A DNA stretch of 20,852 nt from a virus: positions 1 to 20,852 of the IMG/VR virus record IMGVR_UViG_3300022925_000224; one strand, given 5' to 3'. The position numbers and the translations under genes are program-made. The notes under the pieces are model-generated. The model made no database searches. It was given only the letters and a program-made list of their open reading frames with translations, and was not told the origin of the DNA. Below, one piece after another: positions 5,122 to 14,441 of the stretch (the first letter of the stretch is position 1; every line of letters starts with the position of its first letter).

Positions 5122-5150
5122 TTGACAATTATATAAATATGTCGTATAAT
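5122..5150 (+). promoter_or_regulatory. Sigma70 promoter of the 5197-11299 operon
   Basis: TTGACA at 5122-5127 and TATAAT at 5145-5150, 17-bp spacer, with an A-rich stretch just upstream (TTAAAAATACTT). The transcript would begin near 5157 and fold a small 5' hairpin (GCTC 5168-5171 with GAGC 5176-5179). I see no other promoter until 11296, so this one probably drives the whole 6-kb modification and lysis operon. Confidence 0.88.
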
Positions 5151-5196
5151 ATGTGTTCATTAGGAAAGCTCTACAGAGCAAGAAACGGAGAAAACA

Positions 5197-5334
5197 ATGC
5201 AGGAATTAGCTATATTTGTATTCTGTTTAATTGGGTGCGGTATAACATCATACCGATTAGGATACCATTGTGGCGTTGTCGGAGCCGTCGAACATTTAAT
5301 AGACGAAGGAGTCTTAGAGGTAGATGATGAGTAA
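5197..5334 (+). CDS. Small single-span membrane protein
   Basis: A 45-residue protein: MQELAIFVFCLIGCGITSYR, then LGYHCGVVGAVEHLID, then an acidic tail (EGVLEVDDE). Residues 4-18 form a hydrophobic segment followed by a basic/polar turn, so it probably spans the inner membrane once. GGAG lies 8 nt before ATG 5197, and it is the first gene after the promoter at 5122. It overlaps the glutaredoxin start. As no classical holin is visible nearby, a role in lysis is conceivable, but nothing in the sequence proves it. Confidence 0.75.
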   Translation: MQELAIFVFCLIGCGITSYRLGYHCGVVGAVEHLIDEGVLEVDDE

Positions 5335-5569
5335 TACAACAGTACATATTTACGGCGGGGTCGGCTGCTCTGCCTGCGTAAACGCAGAGAAACTAGCAGA
5401 AAGCAAGGGCTTTAATATACTAAAAAATGACATTGGTGATATTAGCCCACAGGAGTGGATAGATCGAATTGAGATTGTTCCGCGAAGTATTCCCCAAATC
5501 TTTGTAAATGGAGAGTACATAGGCGGCTTAGATAGCTTTCGAGGATGGCTACATGAACACGATCTCTGA
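5324..5569 (+). CDS. Glutaredoxin
   Basis: An 81-residue thioredoxin-fold protein that should exchange disulfides using glutathione in the cytoplasm. It has the dithiol active site CSAC (Cys15 and Cys18) after the first beta strand, the cis-proline segment RSIPQIFVNG and the closing glycine pair YIGG before the last helix. Length is usual for a glutaredoxin. Two adjacent ATGs (5324, 5327) are possible starts; GAGG lies just upstream. Phage glutaredoxins often serve ribonucleotide reductase, but no reductase gene is in this window; recycling the peroxiredoxin at 1296 is another option. Confidence 0.93.
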   Translation: MMSNTTVHIYGGVGCSACVNAEKLAESKGFNILKNDIGDISPQEWIDRIEIVPRSIPQIFVNGEYIGGLDSFRGWLHEHDL

Positions 5570-6101
5570 GGAGTATCGCAAAGTTTTAGTAGACACACAT
5601 AAAGGAAGCGGAGAGCGGGGTTGGGGAAATACTGGATCAGTAAAATATCTACAACCAACTCTCAGTCTTATAGATAGATATAAAGCAAAAGAAATGCTCG
5701 ACTATGGCGCAGGTTGGGGAGGCATGAAGGAAGCTTTAAAAACAGAACGCCCCGACGTAGTAGTACATGAATATGAGCCAGCACGAGTAGAAGTAGCAGC
5801 ACCCCCTGAACCATGTGATTTTGTTGTTTGTCATGATGTACTCGAACACATTGAACCCGAGTTTTTGGATAACGTTATACTGGACTTAAAGAGAGTAGTA
5901 AGTGGTATGGGCTACTTTTCTGTGTGCACAGTTCCAGCATTAAAAAAGCTATCCGATGGTAGAAATGCTCATCTTATAGTAGAAGAATTTGAGTGGTGGT
6001 TAGTAAAACTTGCCCCACACTTTCATATAAGACAGGCCAGATTCTACAATAGTAGGCAGGTCTCCGGAGACATATTAGTGGAGAAGCGATGTGTGCGATA
6101 A
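5553..6101 (+). CDS. Class I SAM-dependent methyltransferase (copy 1)
   Basis: A 182-residue protein with a Rossmann-type methyltransferase core. Motif I is LDYGAGWGG (residues 49-57), and the post-II region is CHDVLEHIEPE (93-103). The target is unknown. The later segment SDGRNAHLIVEEFEWW has a counterpart in the second methyltransferase at 13926, with the shared anchors DVLEHIEPE, DGRNAH and WW, so the two belong to the same phage subfamily. It overlaps the glutaredoxin by 17 nt and the amidotransferase by 13 nt. Its place in the operon suggests a small molecule, sugar or protein substrate rather than a restriction-linked DNA methylase; it lacks the NPPY or PC motifs of DNA base methyltransferases. 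Confidence 0.85.
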   Translation: MNTISEEYRKVLVDTHKGSGERGWGNTGSVKYLQPTLSLIDRYKAKEMLDYGAGWGGMKEALKTERPDVVVHEYEPARVEVAAPPEPCDFVVCHDVLEHIEPEFLDNVILDLKRVVSGMGYFSVCTVPALKKLSDGRNAHLIVEEFEWWLVKLAPHFHIRQARFYNSRQVSGDILVEKRCVR

Positions 6102-7705
6102 ATGGAATTAGTTGGGATGACTTACACCTAGTAGAAAGAATGTGCAAAGCGAATAAAAGTAGGGGGCCTGACTATACACGTAGTTTTGTAAGAAACGGTG
6201 TATCACTAGGACATAACCTTCTAGCTATAAATAGAGATGTAAAATACTCTATACAACCAAGAATGACACCTAAATCTATGCTTGCTTTTAACGGCGAGTT
6301 ATATGATATAGACGCAGAAGAAATATTAGATACAGACTATCTTCAGGCTCGTTTAGAAGCAGAAGGAACAAAAGCTCTACGGGGTCTCAACGGGGCTTTT
6401 GCTCTCGCATGGGTACAAGGAGATATTCTCTACTTGGCAAGAGATCACTTTGGTAGTAAGCCAATGTATTATTCTCTTACAAAACAGGGTATTATATTTT
6501 CTTCCACAATCTTTGCAATTATAGAAGGAGGCGTTCACCCTTACTTCTCTCCTGCAAATATCGAAGAGTTTCAAATGGGAAACTACTGGCAGAACGGCCA
6601 GAAAACTGTATATAGTAATATTCATAAACTTGCTCCAGGGCAGATTATGAAGTATGATGTAATAAAACAACGAATTATTGGATATGATAGTTGTTGGGAT
6701 GACTACAATATAGAACAACGTGACTTCAATCATTTCGAGTATAGGGAAAAGGTTTTAGAAGGAGTTCTGCGTACTGCACGAACTAAAGAAAGGTTAGCCT
6801 TGTTGCATAGTGGAGGACTTGATAGTAATCTTATTGGTGCTATCCTGGGCGCTACAAACACTGAGAACTTCTTCTCTGCGACTCTTTCGTATGAGGACGA
6901 TCCAGTACTTGACCCTGATCCTTATAGAGCTATGATGGATGAAGTAGACTTTGCAATGCTATGCACAAAAGAATATAATATTGAGCATTTTATTACAGAG
7001 ATGCCTGCTTCACAGGAAATTATAGACCGATACTCAAAAAGAGCTATGGAAATATGTGGCTCAATTTTTGAGGATAGTTATAGAATGGTACCTCGACTTT
7101 ACCTTCTTGAGCAGGTTGCGAAAAGAGGTGCAAAAGTTGTGCTTACTGGCGATGGTGGAGATGAAATTTTTAGTGGTTATAATAAACATGGAGATTGGTT
7201 AAACCCCAAAGTACAAGCTAATCCAATGTCTATAAGCCAGCTTAGGCCACAAGACCATACAGTACAGCATCATATTGATAGGCATGGTTTGGAAGATTGG
7301 TTTCCTCTCGGTGTGATTGAAGGTGTACATCCTATAACCTCTCAAATGTTCATTGATCTATTGACAGGTTGTGAAACTTATTTATTACGTTCAGATTCGT
7401 TTTGCGGGGCTTTTGGTATGGAAAGTAGAAATCCCTTTCTCTATCAAGACCTTGCTAAATATGTTTTGGAAATTCCTCTAAAAAGAAAATTACAGTATGA
7501 GACAAATTTGTTTCGTGGTACTAATAAATTTTTAATCAGAGAGGTGTTCTCGGATATTATCCCAGATCTAATTACTAAACGAAATGGTAAGGTAGGTTGG
7601 TCGTTACCTTATTGGAGAAAAGATCCTGCTATTAGGAAAAGAAGAATGACCAAAGATCAAAATATGCTAGAAAGCATAGTGGAGGATAAAATAAATGAGC
7701 GGTAA
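6089..7705 (+). CDS. Asparagine-synthase-type glutamine amidotransferase
   Basis: A 538-residue, full-length AsnB-family protein. The Met-Cys start places the Ntn nucleophile Cys2 at the mature N-terminus, which fixes the start at 6089. The glutaminase half also shows RGPDY and FNGELYD; the ATP-pyrophosphatase half has the PP-loop SGGLDS near residue 242 and GDGGDEIFSGY near 354. The family makes ammonia from glutamine and amidates an adenylated carboxylate. The residue equivalent to E. coli AsnB Arg49 (HERLSI) appears to be Leu here (HNLLAI). The product may be asparagine or, as for family members in polysaccharide clusters, an amidated sugar acid; the flanking methyltransferase and glycosyltransferases favour the latter (inference). 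Confidence 0.92.
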   Translation: MCAINGISWDDLHLVERMCKANKSRGPDYTRSFVRNGVSLGHNLLAINRDVKYSIQPRMTPKSMLAFNGELYDIDAEEILDTDYLQARLEAEGTKALRGLNGAFALAWVQGDILYLARDHFGSKPMYYSLTKQGIIFSSTIFAIIEGGVHPYFSPANIEEFQMGNYWQNGQKTVYSNIHKLAPGQIMKYDVIKQRIIGYDSCWDDYNIEQRDFNHFEYREKVLEGVLRTARTKERLALLHSGGLDSNLIGAILGATNTENFFSATLSYEDDPVLDPDPYRAMMDEVDFAMLCTKEYNIEHFITEMPASQEIIDRYSKRAMEICGSIFEDSYRMVPRLYLLEQVAKRGAKVVLTGDGGDEIFSGYNKHGDWLNPKVQANPMSISQLRPQDHTVQHHIDRHGLEDWFPLGVIEGVHPITSQMFIDLLTGCETYLLRSDSFCGAFGMESRNPFLYQDLAKYVLEIPLKRKLQYETNLFRGTNKFLIREVFSDIIPDLITKRNGKVGWSLPYWRKDPAIRKRRMTKDQNMLESIVEDKINER

Positions 7706-7853
7706 AGGAAGTAAACAAAGACCTACTGACAAAGAGAAGTTTGATGCAGCATATGACGAAATCTTTGGCAAAAAGGATCAAAAAGTCAAGCAAGCCATGG
7801 TGACTGATTTGAATTGGGACGGCATAGAAGACGACGAGCCTGAAAATGAGTAA
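7695..7853 (+). CDS. Small conserved phage protein
   Basis: A 52-residue protein beginning MSGKGSKQRPTDKEKFDAAY and continuing DEIFGKKDQK, with an acidic tail. The 'MSxGSxxRP...(Y/W)DxIFGKK' pattern is familiar from very short proteins in many phages, with no function known to me. GGAGG lies about 9 nt before ATG 7695. It overlaps the amidotransferase by 11 nt and the spanin gene by 8 nt, so it is translated as part of the same string. Confidence 0.8.
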   Translation: MSGKGSKQRPTDKEKFDAAYDEIFGKKDQKVKQAMVTDLNWDGIEDDEPENE

Positions 7854-8274
7854 GATACTGCTAGGTATCATATTTGCAATGGGCTTAGTAGGTGGGTTAT
7901 ATTACTATACTACTGACGCAACCATTACAGAGCTGAGAAAACTACTAGCAGCTTATGAATTGAAATTCGCAACTCAAGAAGAGACAATTCAGGCTTTAGA
8001 AAAAGATTTTGCCCTTCAAACAGAAGCGTTAAAGGATATGCAGGTTCAAAGTCAGCAAATCCAACAAGAGATGAACAGGTATTTAGATATCTTCAAAAGA
8101 CATAACCTAACTAAGTTAGCTGCTGCAAAGCCAGGTCTTATTGAAGGTAAAGTAAATAAAGCTACCAAAGGAGTATTCGATGGGATCGAAGATGATAGTG
8201 CTAGCCTTGACCGCCTTGATGACGGGGTGCAGCTTTCTAATGCCAGCCCCGAGGGAAGTGGAGATAGTAACTAA
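7846..8274 (+). CDS. i-spanin (Rz-like)
   Basis: A 142-residue inner-membrane protein. Residues 4-20 form one N-terminal membrane span, residues about 25-95 a coiled coil facing the periplasm (many heptad-spaced L/I and E/Q/K), and a segment 'RHNLTKLAAAKPGLIEGKVNKATK' follows that I associate with Rz-type proteins of several phages. The i-spanin pairs with an outer-membrane lipoprotein, and together they fuse inner and outer membranes at lysis. The o-spanin gene starts inside this one in another frame. Presence of a spanin pair indicates a Gram-negative host. Confidence 0.85.
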   Translation: MSKILLGIIFAMGLVGGLYYYTTDATITELRKLLAAYELKFATQEETIQALEKDFALQTEALKDMQVQSQQIQQEMNRYLDIFKRHNLTKLAAAKPGLIEGKVNKATKGVFDGIEDDSASLDRLDDGVQLSNASPEGSGDSN

Positions 8275-8572
8275 ACCAGTAGAGCGGGTTATAGCCCAAC
8301 CTGTTCTCCCAAGAGCCTTAGACCTCAAAGAACCTTATTGGTACGTAGTATCAAAAGCCAACCTCGAAGAGTTCTTAGCTCGAATGGAGAAAGAAGAAGG
8401 GCAAGTCGTATTTCTTGCAATGTCAGTACCTGACTATGAGCTAATGGCTTATAATATGCAAGAGATCAAAAGATATATAAAAGAAACGCAGCAGGTGATA
8501 ATTTATTACCGCAAGGTCACTACGGAGAAAGTAAATGGACAAGAAAGCAGTGTACGAACAACTAAAGATTGA
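8180..8572 (+). CDS. o-spanin-like outer-membrane lipoprotein
   Basis: A 130-residue protein with an N-terminal lipoprotein signal: hydrophobic MIVLALTALM followed by a TGC lipobox, Cys17 being the likely lipidated residue. A Pro-rich stretch (LMPAPREVEIVTKPVERVI) follows, as in Rz1 proteins, then a folded domain containing YWYVVSKANLEEFLARM, FLAMSVPDYELMAYNMQE and QQVIIYYRKVT. AAAGGAG lies 6 nt before ATG 8180, inside the i-spanin gene; the overlap is 95 nt in another frame, the partly nested Rz/Rz1 architecture. It is much longer than lambda Rz1 because of the C-terminal domain, whose role is unknown. Confidence 0.83.
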   Translation: MGSKMIVLALTALMTGCSFLMPAPREVEIVTKPVERVIAQPVLPRALDLKEPYWYVVSKANLEEFLARMEKEEGQVVFLAMSVPDYELMAYNMQEIKRYIKETQQVIIYYRKVTTEKVNGQESSVRTTKD

Positions 8573-8981
8573 TGAAGGGGTGGTTTATGAAATCTATCTC
8601 GATCATCTCGGCTACCCCACGTTTGGCGTTGGACACTTGGTACTTAAAAGCGATCCAGAATTTGGACAGGAAGTGGGAACAAAGGTTAGCGAAGAAAGAG
8701 TCCAAGAATGCTTCGACAAAGACCTCGAAACCTCAATCGACGAGTGTTACGCTCTATACGGCCCAGGGACATTTAACAACTTCCCATCCGAAGTCCGAGA
8801 GATCCTGGTTAATATGATATTTAACATGGGTCGTCCACGTCTTTCAGGGTTTAAAAACTTTAATGCAGCACTAATTGGCTGTGATTGGAGTAAAGCCTCA
8901 GAAGAAATGGTGGATAGTCGTTGGTACCGTCAAGTCGGTGCTAGAGCAGAACGTTTAGTAGAGAGAATGAAAGCGGTATGA
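8535..8981 (+). CDS. Endolysin, T4-type lysozyme (GH24)
   Basis: A 148-residue muramidase that cleaves the beta-1,4 bond between N-acetylmuramic acid and N-acetylglucosamine. The catalytic triad E-x8-D-x5-T is present: Glu14, Asp23 and Thr29 (DEGVVYEIYLDHLGYPT), followed by FGVGHLV. The C-terminal lobe has FNMGRPRLSGFKNF and SRWYRQVGARAERLV, typical of this family. Without signal peptide or signal-anchor, export should need a holin, and no clear holin gene is seen. The start has GGAG 8 nt upstream and lies inside the o-spanin gene. The stop overlaps the next start (ATGA). Confidence 0.95.
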   Translation: MDKKAVYEQLKIDEGVVYEIYLDHLGYPTFGVGHLVLKSDPEFGQEVGTKVSEERVQECFDKDLETSIDECYALYGPGTFNNFPSEVREILVNMIFNMGRPRLSGFKNFNAALIGCDWSKASEEMVDSRWYRQVGARAERLVERMKAV

Positions 8982-9616
8982 AAATATTTATAGGCCATGA
9001 TAGACAGATACCTGAAAATACAGATGTATGTGAGAAATCAATACGTAAGTACGAACCAGGAGCTAACATTACTCGCATCGATATATCAGAGATGTGGGAA
9101 CGGGGTTACAATAGAAAGGAGGATGGGTCAACGGAGTTTACTTATACTCGTTTCTTAGTGCCTATGTTATCTGGATATCAAGGCCTGTCTTTATTTTGTG
9201 ATAGTGACTTCGTATGGCAAGGAAGCCCATACGGGGTCGCTAATTACCACGACGACGAAAACGCAGTCTCAGTAGTGCAACATAGGGTCTATGATGCACA
9301 CGAAATAAAGATGAATAATATAAGGAACGAAAGCTATGATAGAAAATGGTGGTCGTCTCTTATGTTATTCAACTGTGGGCATGAGCATACTAAAAGGCTA
9401 ACTATGGAAGAAGTAAATCAAGCGTCTTCTGCTTATTTACATCGACTATGGTGGGCAGAGACTAAAATTGGGTCAATACCAGGAATCTATAATCATTTAG
9501 TTGGTTATGACGAGCCTGAGCCAGGCATTCAAGCCTACCATTTCACAGACGGAACACCTATTCATAAAGGACAGAAGTTCGGCCCTTGTGTGGAGAAATA
9601 CCTTGAGTTTATGTGA
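8978..9616 (+). CDS. DxD-type glycosyltransferase (GT-A fold, GT8-like)
   Basis: A 212-residue protein beginning MKIFIGHDRQIPENTDVCEK, typical of the first strand and nucleotide-sugar loop of GT-A enzymes. Residues 74-77, CDSD in LSLFCDSDFVWQG, form the metal- and sugar-nucleotide-binding DxD motif. Residues TYTRFLVP just before it match the 'xxxRFxxP' of GT8-like proteins. WWSSLMLFNCGH is the acceptor-side segment seen in relatives. It should transfer a sugar from an NDP donor to an unknown acceptor in the cytoplasm. It is coupled to lysozyme by ATGA and overlaps the GT29-like gene by 14 nt. Confidence 0.82.
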   Translation: MKIFIGHDRQIPENTDVCEKSIRKYEPGANITRIDISEMWERGYNRKEDGSTEFTYTRFLVPMLSGYQGLSLFCDSDFVWQGSPYGVANYHDDENAVSVVQHRVYDAHEIKMNNIRNESYDRKWWSSLMLFNCGHEHTKRLTMEEVNQASSAYLHRLWWAETKIGSIPGIYNHLVGYDEPEPGIQAYHFTDGTPIHKGQKFGPCVEKYLEFM

Positions 9617-10325
9617 TATTCAGCAAACCGTACGAAACAAATCAGTAATCGTAGTAGGAAACAATGCCACTGCACTTGAAAAAGAGCAGGGAGAGCTTAT
9701 TGATAGCTATGATGTAGTAATTCGGTTCGGAAAAGGTATTCCAGACGGCTATGAGCAGTATTTAGGTAGGCGTACTGATATTTGGGTTACTGGAGGCTTT
9801 CGCATGACGATGAGAGACTATTTTCCGTCCACAACTCAAGTATTATTTAATACTAGCACAATAAATGGCATAGAAATAAAGCGCCCAACGTATGAGCATA
9901 CTGTAATGTATGAAATAGACGAAATTAAGGCGTTAAACGAGTATTATGGCGGAAAAACGAGTCGCTTATCTGCTGGCGCCGTAGCGGGGTTATGGCTAGT
10001 CAACGAAGTTACTTGCTACCAGGACCTCACCTTCATAAATTTTGACTTTTTCACGCATACGGTAAAGTTTAATGACAGACTCAGTAAAAAAACTAATATA
10101 GCCTCAAGTTGGCACTTACCTCTTGCTTCTGGAGCAAAAGTAGACCTCGTTAATCCTGAGAACCACCCTGCACATAGTATAGAAGTAGAGAAAGCCGTAT
10201 TTAGAGATTTACAGTTACTAGATAAAGACGTAAAAATTATAGCAGATTTAGCACAACCAGCAGAGTTTATTGACGTAGAAAGGATGGCATGGGACAATGT
10301 TAGACACCGTATTCAAACCTCTTAA
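9603..10325 (+). CDS. GT29 sialyltransferase-like protein
   Basis: A 240-residue protein with the three motifs of GT29 sialyltransferases in order. A motif-L-like block is VIVVGNNATALEKEQGELID, then SYDVVIRFG; a motif-S-like block is LSAGAVAGLWLVNEV, then INFDFF; and H-x4-E (HSIEVE) is the VS motif. GT29 enzymes move sialic acid from CMP-sialic acid to a glycan. Here donor and acceptor are unknown; related nonulosonic acids are possible. TTG 9603 was chosen because GGAG lies 7 nt upstream and motif L begins about 14 residues later; GTG 9588 is an alternative. No CMP-sugar synthase is in this window, so the donor would come from the host or other phage genes. Confidence 0.8.
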   Translation: MSLCDIQQTVRNKSVIVVGNNATALEKEQGELIDSYDVVIRFGKGIPDGYEQYLGRRTDIWVTGGFRMTMRDYFPSTTQVLFNTSTINGIEIKRPTYEHTVMYEIDEIKALNEYYGGKTSRLSAGAVAGLWLVNEVTCYQDLTFINFDFFTHTVKFNDRLSKKTNIASSWHLPLASGAKVDLVNPENHPAHSIEVEKAVFRDLQLLDKDVKIIADLAQPAEFIDVERMAWDNVRHRIQTS

Positions 10326-10842
10326 ATATGAAGAAGTAGCTCCTGATATATACCAAGTAGATTTTTTAAATGAACAGTTCTGTGAGTTTATTATAGCCTC
10401 TTGTAATCAGGTAAACACCTGGGCTCCAAATAAACATGATAAGCGTTATGCTACTCATGATATTCATTTGGAGAAAGAAGTACCAGACATTTATAGTATA
10501 GTTCAGCCTTACTGGGATACTAGCGTATCTCGTTTAGCTGAGTTTATCTGGCAGATAGATGGCTTTGTACTATCAGATTTCTTTGCATTAAAATACTCCA
10601 GAGAAACTCAGACAGGGCTTTCTCTTCATCATGACGATAGTTATATTACAGGAAGTGTAAAACTTAATAATAACTATACTGGTGGAGATCTTTATTTTCC
10701 ACGACAAAAGTTCTCTAGTGCAGACGTACCTGTGGGGTCTCTTTTATTGTTTCCTGGAAAGATAACTCATCCCCATAAATGTAATCAGCTTGTTGGAGGA
10801 CATAAGTACTCCCTTGCTATGTGGACTAAAGAAAGTGCATAA
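10297..10842 (+). CDS. Fe(II)/2-oxoglutarate oxygenase, prolyl-4-hydroxylase-like (1)
   Basis: A 181-residue double-stranded beta-helix enzyme, expected to hydroxylate a protein or sugar using O2 and 2-oxoglutarate. The iron facial triad is HHDD (H111/H112 with D113/D114) and a distal His in ITHPH (H158 or H160); TGGDLYFP and VGSLLLFPG are the intervening strands usual in the P4H/PLOD group. Where the family usually has Arg to bind 2-oxoglutarate, this protein has Lys170 (GGHKYSLAMW). Lys does the same job in some oxygenases, so activity is plausible. It overlaps the GT29-like gene by 29 nt. Confidence 0.87.
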   Translation: MLDTVFKPLKYEEVAPDIYQVDFLNEQFCEFIIASCNQVNTWAPNKHDKRYATHDIHLEKEVPDIYSIVQPYWDTSVSRLAEFIWQIDGFVLSDFFALKYSRETQTGLSLHHDDSYITGSVKLNNNYTGGDLYFPRQKFSSADVPVGSLLLFPGKITHPHKCNQLVGGHKYSLAMWTKESA

Positions 10843-11299
10843 AATAATAGACAACTTTTTGCCGAGAGGCATTAGAGTAGACACAAATCCTTTTAAAGGT
10901 CAGTGGTATGACTACCCTCCTCAAAAACCCTATCAACAAGCCATCTTTGAGGAGATAAAGCAAACCTTTGATATGAAGTCCTGTGTAGGGTTTGAAGAGT
11001 GGTCACACAATCCGCATTGGAGTTGGTTACCTGAAGAACACTACGATAAAGATGAGACTTTATTTTATAAAGAAGGCATAGTGAGAACGCCCCTTTGTAG
11101 CGCAGTTTTTTATCTTAAAGTGTCAGACCTTGCAGGAGGAGACTTACACTTAATAGATGAAGACGTTCTAATATCTCCTAGAACAAATAGACTTGTTTTG
11201 TTCAGTCCAGGGGTTTTGCACACTGTTACCGAGTATATATCAGGAGAACGAGTAAGTTTAAATATAAATCCATGGGACTATGCTATAAAAAGTTCTTGA
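10835..11299 (+). CDS. Fe(II)/2-oxoglutarate oxygenase-like protein (2)
   Basis: A 154-residue protein with the same fold signature as its neighbour but little sequence identity. A likely triad is H69-x-D71 (EEHYDKDE) and H129 (FSPGVLHTV), with R139 (GERVSLNINPW) as the 2-oxoglutarate anchor; AGGDLHLID is the strand preceding the jelly-roll core. GTG 10835 was chosen because it overlaps the previous stop by 8 nt and keeps the conserved start VHKIIDNFLP. The substrate is unknown. Its stop codon TGA is embedded in the -35 box of the next promoter (TTGACT, 11296-11301). Certainty is lower than for the first oxygenase because H69-x-D71 sits in a less typical context. Confidence 0.75.
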   Translation: MHKIIDNFLPRGIRVDTNPFKGQWYDYPPQKPYQQAIFEEIKQTFDMKSCVGFEEWSHNPHWSWLPEEHYDKDETLFYKEGIVRTPLCSAVFYLKVSDLAGGDLHLIDEDVLISPRTNRLVLFSPGVLHTVTEYISGERVSLNINPWDYAIKSS

Positions 11300-11324
11300 C
11301 TTTCTTTGTTAGTTTCGGTATAAT
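11296..11324 (+). promoter_or_regulatory. Sigma70 promoter
   Basis: TTGACT at 11296-11301 and TATAAT at 11319-11324, 17-bp spacer, preceded by the AAAAAGTTC block shared with other promoters here. Transcription should begin near 11331. It drives the gene starting with ATT at 11351 and, by overlap, the ThyX gene. Confidence 0.9.
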
Positions 11325-13301: not shown

Positions 13302-13929
13302 AGCACCAATTACTAAGAAAGAAGCCTGCGACTTCTTAAATATAGCATACAACACAACTAGACTACAGAAGATTCTTGATGAGTATGAGGAACGTAAGGA
13401 ATACACAGCAGCGCGTAAGGCAAAGCTACGCGGCACGAAGGCGGCTGATCATGAGATTAGAGAAGCCGTTACCAGTTATCTCGACGGAGAAAGTATTGCA
13501 GCAATCGCAAAACAGCTCTATCGTTCAGCAAGTTTCGTAAAGAATATAATTGATAGAGTCGGTGTGCCTAGTAAGCCAGCGTCTGCGGCAGATCGCATTA
13601 ACCCTGCTTACTTACCAGATGAGTGCGTAGCAGAGTCTTTTGAGAAAGGAGCTATAGTATGGTCTGCAAAGTACCATTCACCAGCTATCGTAGAACAAGA
13701 GATTTCTATAGCATATCAGGCTGAAAAGATGGGGTATCAAGACACTAACTACGAAGCGCGTTACGGAAGTAAGTGCTATAGTATTTATATCTTGCAGCCC
13801 ATACAACAACAAGAAGATATGTGGATGGCCGTGCCTAATAGTGGCGGCTTCAACGCATTTTCTCTAGCATATGATCTCGGGTGTCTAAAGCATCTTGAGA
13901 AGTATGGAGTGGATTTAAAGAAGTTATGA
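13204..13929 (+). CDS. HTH-containing phage protein, DNA-binding candidate
   Basis: A 241-residue protein starting at GTG 13204 with GGAGG 9 nt upstream (13190-13194). The N-terminus is basic (ALAKRVKKKDHEN). Residues about 35-60 (ITKKEACDFLNIAYNTTRLQ) and about 90-115 (GESIAAIAKQLYRSASFVKN) are helix-turn-helix-like; the C-terminal 120 residues look like a separate beta-rich domain. I recall phage proteins with 'KPITKKEACxxLNIxYNTTRLxxI' of unknown function. It overlaps the upstream gene by 98 nt and the methyltransferase by ATGA. A site-specific DNA-binding role is likely but not established. Confidence 0.75.
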   Translation: MALAKRVKKKDHENLSSTNIEKVLNLLSPGSTKAPITKKEACDFLNIAYNTTRLQKILDEYEERKEYTAARKAKLRGTKAADHEIREAVTSYLDGESIAAIAKQLYRSASFVKNIIDRVGVPSKPASAADRINPAYLPDECVAESFEKGAIVWSAKYHSPAIVEQEISIAYQAEKMGYQDTNYEARYGSKCYSIYILQPIQQQEDMWMAVPNSGGFNAFSLAYDLGCLKHLEKYGVDLKKL

Positions 13930-14441
13930 TAAGCGATTACTATAGACAACAGCTACAAACCTTACATGAGGAAAACGTTACTTGGGGTAACGGCCCTCGT
14001 ATGTATATGTTACGTATCTCCAAATGGATTCTGGAAGAAGAAGTTACAGAATTACTTGATTACGGGTGTGGAAAGGGTAAAAACGTACCTTTTATTCTGC
14101 CAATTAAAATAGTAAACTATGATCCAGGTGTACCTCAGTGGAGTGCAGACCCTCAAGTTTGTAAGCACTTATTATGTATAGACGTACTAGAACATATTGA
14201 ACCTGAGCATCTTTATTCGGTGCTAGAGCATATTGCTAGTAAATTTACAGTAGGTGCTATGTTGAATATAGCATTAACAGAGTCTAAACACTTTCTTCCA
14301 GACGGAAGGAATGCACATATTTTATTACGCCCAGTAGCTTGGTGGGTAGAAGTACTACAGGAATTTTACACACTAGAGTCTCTTGAGTTTAAGGAAGCAA
14401 GTTTTACAGCTTTTATTAGGCCTAAGAAAAATAATTCTTGA
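13926..14441 (+). CDS. Class I SAM-dependent methyltransferase (copy 2)
   Basis: A 171-residue enzyme. SAM motif I is LLDYGCGKG (43-51), the acidic residue after strand 2 is in NYDPGVP (64-70), and CIDVLEHIEPE (84-94) is the motif IV-like region. It shares these anchors plus LPDGRNAH and a WW pair with the protein at 5553, but the rest has diverged. No DNA-methylase NPPY or PC motif is seen, so the target is probably not a DNA base. Its stop TGA lies inside the -35 box of the promoter at 14438. Confidence 0.85.
   Translation: MISDYYRQQLQTLHEENVTWGNGPRMYMLRISKWILEEEVTELLDYGCGKGKNVPFILPIKIVNYDPGVPQWSADPQVCKHLLCIDVLEHIEPEHLYSVLEHIASKFTVGAMLNIALTESKHFLPDGRNAHILLRPVAWWVEVLQEFYTLESLEFKEASFTAFIRPKKNNS

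Follow-up and report, generated by a model that had tools for sequence, protein, structure and literature searches.

The closest described counterparts of the genes considered here are the GT29 enzymes of the CAZy classification, the collagen lysyl hydroxylase and glycosyltransferase L230 of mimivirus, a gene arrangement in giant Caulobacter phages, and the virion glycosylation of mycobacteriophages. GT29 sequences have been reported from bacteria (PMC5811610). A few viral proteins already bear GT29 annotations, and the family is not wholly unseen in phages; no description of GT29 in phages was found in the literature. Here, we describe a twelve-gene operon in a viral DNA record of 20,852 nt (IMG/VR IMGVR_UViG_3300022925_000224, positions 1 to 20,852; referred to as the window), in which two adjacent genes, g09 and g10, encode a GT8-fold glycosyltransferase (GT) and a GT29 protein. 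The results indicate that these genes form a widespread phage pair, the second member of which probably uses cytidine monophosphate-activated 3-deoxy-D-manno-octulosonic acid (CMP-Kdo).

The g09-g10 glycosyltransferase pair

The predicted g10 protein was placed in GT29 by Pfam, fold, and motifs. It matched PF00777 at 35.8 bits, above the curated cut-off of 23, and PF00777 was also above its cut-off in 29 of the 48 relatives' records. The top 30 Protein Data Bank (PDB) matches of its AlphaFold model (predicted local distance difference test score, pLDDT, 80.9) were all GT29 sialyltransferases, with E down to 6e-8, and no PDB entry outside GT29 was matched at E below 0.01. Among 62 non-redundant sequences, G19, N20, D37, G43, R121, S123, and G125 of sialylmotif L and the S-type motif were invariant, position 41 was R in 57 and K in 5, and the motif III histidine (H171) was found in all 62, while H191 and E196 of the VS motif HxxxxE were retained in 61, the remaining one having a gap. 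For g09, the AlphaFold model (pLDDT 88.6) gave LgtC, GlyE, LARGE1, and glycogenin as the best Foldseek matches and showed a GT-A fold with a DxD motif, in which D75 and D77 were invariant. No Pfam family matched g09 at E below 1, neither GT8 nor any other Pfam GT family, and it is therefore named a GT8-fold protein rather than a GT8 member.

Homologues were searched for in viral contigs using the AsnB-type amidotransferase, the GT, GT29, and the methyltransferase of the operon as queries. The GT29 alignment search matched 327 viral stretches, and 80 loci were kept. Companion genes were counted within six genes of GT29 in 99 GT29 loci (L numbers below), nearly all of them viral. The GT accompanied GT29 in 94 of the 99 loci and was located directly upstream, with overlapping open reading frames (ORFs), in 90. 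The distance matrices of GT and GT29, calculated from 62 non-redundant pairs, were strongly correlated (r 0.89; 0 of 999 permutations as high), and this apparent co-divergence is as expected for genes inherited together.

The pair was detected on several unrelated backbones, namely marine T5-like phages, the Stenotrophomonas T4-like phage DLP6, and two other marine groups; in DLP6, a methyltransferase, GT, GT29, and glutaredoxin lie in a row. A GT29 profile gave no match among the neighbours of g09 homologues in Synechococcus phage S-SCSM2R, Pelagibacter phage Mosig, and the Caulobacter phages, indicating that these stretches carry only the GT half. In cellular genomes, a pattern scan, which sets a lower bound, returned two matches only, a short one in Helicobacter and a metagenome-assembled contig in which the genes are ordered as in a virus. 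Taken together, GT-GT29 is a real and widespread phage glycosyltransferase pair for which we found no described function, and the two proteins very probably act together.

Some neighbours of these genes were recorded separately. A 441-aa protein with a DGDD motif and the look of a GT2-type glycosyltransferase (L092:4062-5387) precedes the pair in 12 loci and had no Pfam match. In 34 loci, GT29 is followed by two unannotated genes of opposite orientation, c5 and c4 (L069:6628-7587 and L112:5653-6552); a KPHP motif in c4 recalls GT-B glycosyltransferases, and c4 had no Pfam match. The CcrColossus gene annotated as alpha-2,3-sialyltransferase-like (L042:3401-4051) was rejected as a GT29 candidate, as it matched MptE-like proteins.

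Sugar donor of g10

KdsA and KdsB make CMP-Kdo, which is produced by Gram-negative hosts. Of the 99 loci, 24 have KdsA and 15 have KdsB in the vicinity of the pair. In L014, L017, L027, L028, and others, KdsB and KdsA are located immediately upstream of the pair, often with a methyltransferase between. KdsA scored above a curated NCBIfam cut-off, and KdsB was best matched by Kdo cytidylyltransferase models, below the cut-off. In the L028 cluster, a radical SAM/SPASM protein (L028:1797-2732) is encoded upstream of KdsB-KdsA-GT-GT29.

GT29 is the family of the sialyltransferases, and in fold g10 comes nearest to the mammalian ones, so it might be a genuine sialyltransferase using host CMP-N-acetylneuraminic acid or a related nonulosonic acid. 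However, the sialic acid synthase NeuB was found in 0 of 48 records, compared with 15 for DAHP_synth_1, the KdsA family, with working positive controls, and the KdsB proteins resemble Kdo rather than sialic acid cytidylyltransferases. We consider a sialic acid donor improbable. In Arabidopsis, the GT29 protein MGP2/RCKT1 has been proposed, from mutant evidence, to be a CMP-Kdo transferase (PMC11288761). The linkage of KdsA and KdsB to the pair in relatives, the absence of NeuB from the records searched, and the Kdo transfer proposed for a plant GT29 protein make CMP-Kdo the donor with the best support, and g10 is rather likely to use it. The spanin genes imply a Gram-negative host, which makes CMP-Kdo, so the window phage would need no KdsA or KdsB of its own. 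An initial annotation of this DNA had proposed that the phage makes a decorated glycan; our analysis supports a phage-encoded glycan pathway, and replaces the general "decorated sugar" with a predicted CMP-Kdo donor.

Operon architecture and accessory genes

The twelve genes (5197-11299) overlapped at 11 of 11 junctions (Table 1). The two promoters listed in Table 1 also border the counterparts of this operon in L011 and L033-L036, despite differing gene content, and no promoter site with at least 11 of 12 consensus matches was located between them in the window, L011, or L033-L036. Weaker promoter-like sites between 3000 and 14000 were as frequent as expected by chance (30 vs 28.4 +/- 5.0 in shuffles), as were terminator-like sites (9 vs 6.5 +/- 2.7). 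These results confirmed that the operon is real and forms one transcription unit, as the initial annotation had stated, and the amidotransferase, methyltransferase, two GTs, two oxygenases, spanins, and lysozyme that it had named were all present. Two starts were corrected, g10 to TTG 9603 (shorter than the listed ORF) and g12 to GTG 10835. At 12 promoter sites in the window, 11 or all 12 of the 12 consensus positions match. This sigma70 set is unusually strong and regular, and most of the sites head transcription units and lie in the same places in relatives.

Table 1. Promoters and genes of the operon in the window.
Feature	Coordinates	Strand	Evidence
Promoter of the operon, sigma70-type TTGACA-17-TATAAT	5122-5150	+	12/12 match; same place in L011 (12/12), L033-L036 (11/12)
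g01, 45-aa small membrane protein, first gene	5197-5334	+	Sequence; homologues in the same place in L011, L033-L036
g02, glutaredoxin	5327-5569	+	PF00462 E 4.4e-5; phrog_22
g03, class I methyltransferase, recurrent companion of the pair	5553-6101	+	PF13489; phrog_24759 E 1.4e-21
g04, AsnB-type glutamine amidotransferase, lineage-specific	6089-7705	+	PF00733 E 1.5e-36; PF13537
g05, small hydrophilic protein	7695-7853	+	ORF; homologues in L002 and L003
g06, i-spanin	7846-8274	+	phrog_739 E 1.5e-13
g07, o-spanin lipoprotein	8180-8572	+	phrog_812 E 1.8e-13
g08, lysozyme (endolysin)	8535-8981	+	PF00959 E 6.7e-9
g09, GT8-fold glycosyltransferase, DxD (FCDSDF), first of core pair	8978-9616	+	phrog_28018 E 1.2e-42
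g10, GT29-fold glycosyltransferase, second of core pair, predicted CMP-Kdo user	9603-10325	+	PF00777 E 7.5e-9
g11, Fe/2-oxoglutarate (Fe/2OG) oxygenase, procollagen lysyl hydroxylase relative	10297-10842	+	phrog_61 E 1.8e-23
g12, Fe/2OG oxygenase	10835-11299	+	PF13640 E 2.5e-6
Promoter of the next operon, marks this operon's end	11296-11324	+	11/12; same place in L003, L011, L012, L032-L036

The order of the split NAD ligase, D5, DnaB, and primase genes in the right half of the window is that of a Vibrio T5-like phage, and the DnaB is only about 30% identical to those of Vibrio T5-like phages, which identifies the source of the window as a distant marine T5-like phage. The whole-window DNA had no near match among phage records. 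The lysis genes were found beside the pair on the T5-like backbone only. They were rejected as pathway members, the pair being found without them on other backbones, and are part of this lineage's T5-like backbone rather than a defining feature of the pathway. A second methyltransferase of the g03 family (phrog_24759; 13926-14441) is encoded among the replication genes and is kept there in several T5-like relatives. A peroxiredoxin gene (1296-1868; phrog_2281, E 5.8e-63) also occurs in Synechococcus phage S-SCSM2R, near the g09 homologue.

In g04, the Cys2, SGGLDS, and GDGGDE motifs are retained, and the score against the TIGR01536 equivalog was below the cut-off (187.8 vs 267.1 bits), so the protein is described as an AsnB-type amidotransferase rather than as an asparagine synthetase proper. 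g11 matched mimivirus L230 (PDB 6ax6, E 1.6e-10) and human LH3 (E 2.7e-9) with the HHD motif of iron ligands aligned; we regard it, by similarity, as a relative of procollagen lysyl hydroxylases only. g12 showed only weak similarity to a PKHD hydroxylase in the PDB.

Apart from the GT-GT29 pair, the gene set was not conserved as a block. The g03 methyltransferase cluster was found near GT29 in 30 loci, the g12-type oxygenase in 12 (just downstream of GT29), the g11 oxygenase in 5, and AsnB in 4 only, all of these last being T5-like: L002, L003, and L011, which carry both oxygenases as well, and L012, in which AsnB lies directly upstream of GT-GT29. Among other T5-like relatives, L033-L036 have an Hsp20-like gene in the place of AsnB and neither oxygenase, and L055-L061 have one oxygenase. 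AsnB and the two Fe/2OG oxygenases are lineage-specific additions, and the operon is best described as a T5-like lysis region into which the GT-GT29 module and variable decorating genes have been built. The earlier interpretation is thus partly supported: twelve genes acting as one fixed pathway do not fit these loci. In 19 loci, the pair is preceded by a further oxygenase that is unrelated to g11 and belongs to JmjC_2, a family that includes protein hydroxylases.

Acceptor and proposed mechanism

We propose that the operon serves to express the lysis genes of the T5-like backbone along with a mobile glycosylation module of two genes and with decorating enzymes that are specific to the lineage. 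g09, probably with a uridine diphosphate-hexose as donor, would place a sugar on the acceptor, and g10 would then cap this sugar, a CMP-sugar providing the 3-deoxy-ulosonic acid. The cap would most likely be Kdo and its donor CMP-Kdo, drawn from the pool of the Gram-negative host or, in some relatives, made with KdsA and KdsB that these relatives encode. The methyltransferase may O-methylate the glycan, AsnB may amidate its acidic sugar, and g11, as a protein-hydroxylase-like oxygenase, may create a hydroxyl for glycosylation; the product of lysyl hydroxylase is subsequently glycosylated.

A protein target, and more precisely a virion protein, is favoured by the resemblance of g11 to the lysyl hydroxylases L230 and LH3, the JmjC_2 oxygenase near the pair, the tail-like genes in 34 loci, where c5 and c4 lead to long genes resembling tail proteins, and the Caulobacter g09 homologue beside a tail gene. 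The most likely acceptor would be a virion surface protein, on which a charged coat might alter adsorption or protect the particle; we hold this with slightly less than even confidence. For lysis genes combined with a Kdo-capping module directed at the virion surface, the best overall explanation, we consider the chances evenly balanced. The narrower proposal that the hydroxylase makes the attachment site, the GT8-fold enzyme adds the first sugar, and GT29 caps it with Kdo, as a mobile self-contained protein glycosylation system of tailed phages that would give the virion a sugar otherwise restricted to the LPS and capsules of bacteria, is doubtful.

Several points weigh against virion glycosylation with Kdo. 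The window contains neither KdsA nor KdsB, so its donor is deduced from relatives, and at the loci with KdsA, none of them on a T5-like backbone, GT29 has diverged to about 30% identity with g10. Global TM-scores of the g10 model to PDB entries were only about 0.5, and shared phage ancestry partly explains the co-divergence of GT and GT29. AsnB and the oxygenases are rare, and their roles are suggested by family resemblance. The tail-like proteins of the 34 loci are encoded on the opposite strand and were named from sequence appearance, and the one that was searched against Pfam had no match.

A strong rival is that the pair modifies host lipopolysaccharide (LPS) or capsule, the GT extending a core or O-antigen sugar and GT29 adding Kdo, which could keep competing phages from adsorbing, or progeny from adsorbing to debris. 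KdsA, KdsB, and CMP-Kdo are the enzymes and substrate of LPS synthesis, and the GT8-fold proteins LgtC and WbbM act on LPS. Surveys of marine viruses likewise place viral kdsA and kdsB under LPS synthesis (PMC10653327, PMC9529941), and surface lock-out has been proposed for such viruses (PMC5332604). It is because Kdo is an LPS sugar and viral kdsA/kdsB are read in this way that the rival is strong. However, the module is co-expressed with lysis genes in the window, leaving little time for new LPS to pay off, the oxygenases nearest the module resemble protein hydroxylases, and no lipid carrier or flippase genes were recognised in the neighbour clusters examined. We consider an LPS acceptor rather unlikely.

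The enzymes might also hypermodify phage DNA bases against restriction, as in phages with DNA glycosyltransferases and Fe/2OG oxygenases. Elsewhere in phages, bases are hypermodified by TET-like oxygenases acting with methyl-, glycosyl-, and amido-transferases, and genes of nucleotide metabolism (thymidylate synthase and pyrophosphohydrolases) neighbour the operon. However, a scan of the window proteins, which come from a genome fragment, revealed neither a TET/JBP-type oxygenase nor a hydroxymethylpyrimidine synthase, and the oxygenases present match PF13640 and lysyl hydroxylase. The restriction digests in the paper on DLP6 are not clearly described and weigh neither for nor against modified DNA. 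Both GT folds are unlike those of the T4 DNA glucosyltransferases, and we know of no base modification using a CMP-sugar. DNA is a most unlikely acceptor.

If the acceptor is a virion protein, viral kdsA and kdsB near the pair would serve the particle rather than the host envelope. The analysis predicts a phage GT29 Kdo transferase, offers a concrete function for a group of genes in marine viruses that at present are called hypothetical or are counted as auxiliary genes of LPS, and names the isolate DLP6 for direct testing of virion and LPS glycosylation.

Comparison with described systems

The viral GT29 proteins share the fold, sialylmotif L, the S-type motif, two histidines, and HxxxxE with the CAZy GT29 enzymes, namely mammalian sialyltransferases and Arabidopsis RCKT1/MGP2, the proposed rhamnogalacturonan II (RG-II) CMP-Kdo transferase (PMC11288761). 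Unlike these, they are short, without an evident membrane anchor, and fixed to a GT8-fold partner, and their donor is predicted. In mycobacteriophages, phage GTs are likewise proposed to act on virion proteins in putative capsid and tail glycosylation (PMC11256854), whereas the hosts there are mycobacterial, the GT families differ, and no CMP-sugar enzyme is known to be involved. Mimivirus L230, with which g11 aligns over 170 residues including HHD, similarly combines a hydroxylase and glycosyltransferases in one viral system. In the present locus, by contrast, the hydroxylase and GTs are separate genes, the GTs belong to other families, and no collagen-like substrate was seen in the window. 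In the giant Caulobacter phages (CcrColossus, L042), a g09 homologue and a gene annotated as sialyltransferase-like are flanked by a tail gene and by the genes for endolysin, holin, and spanin.

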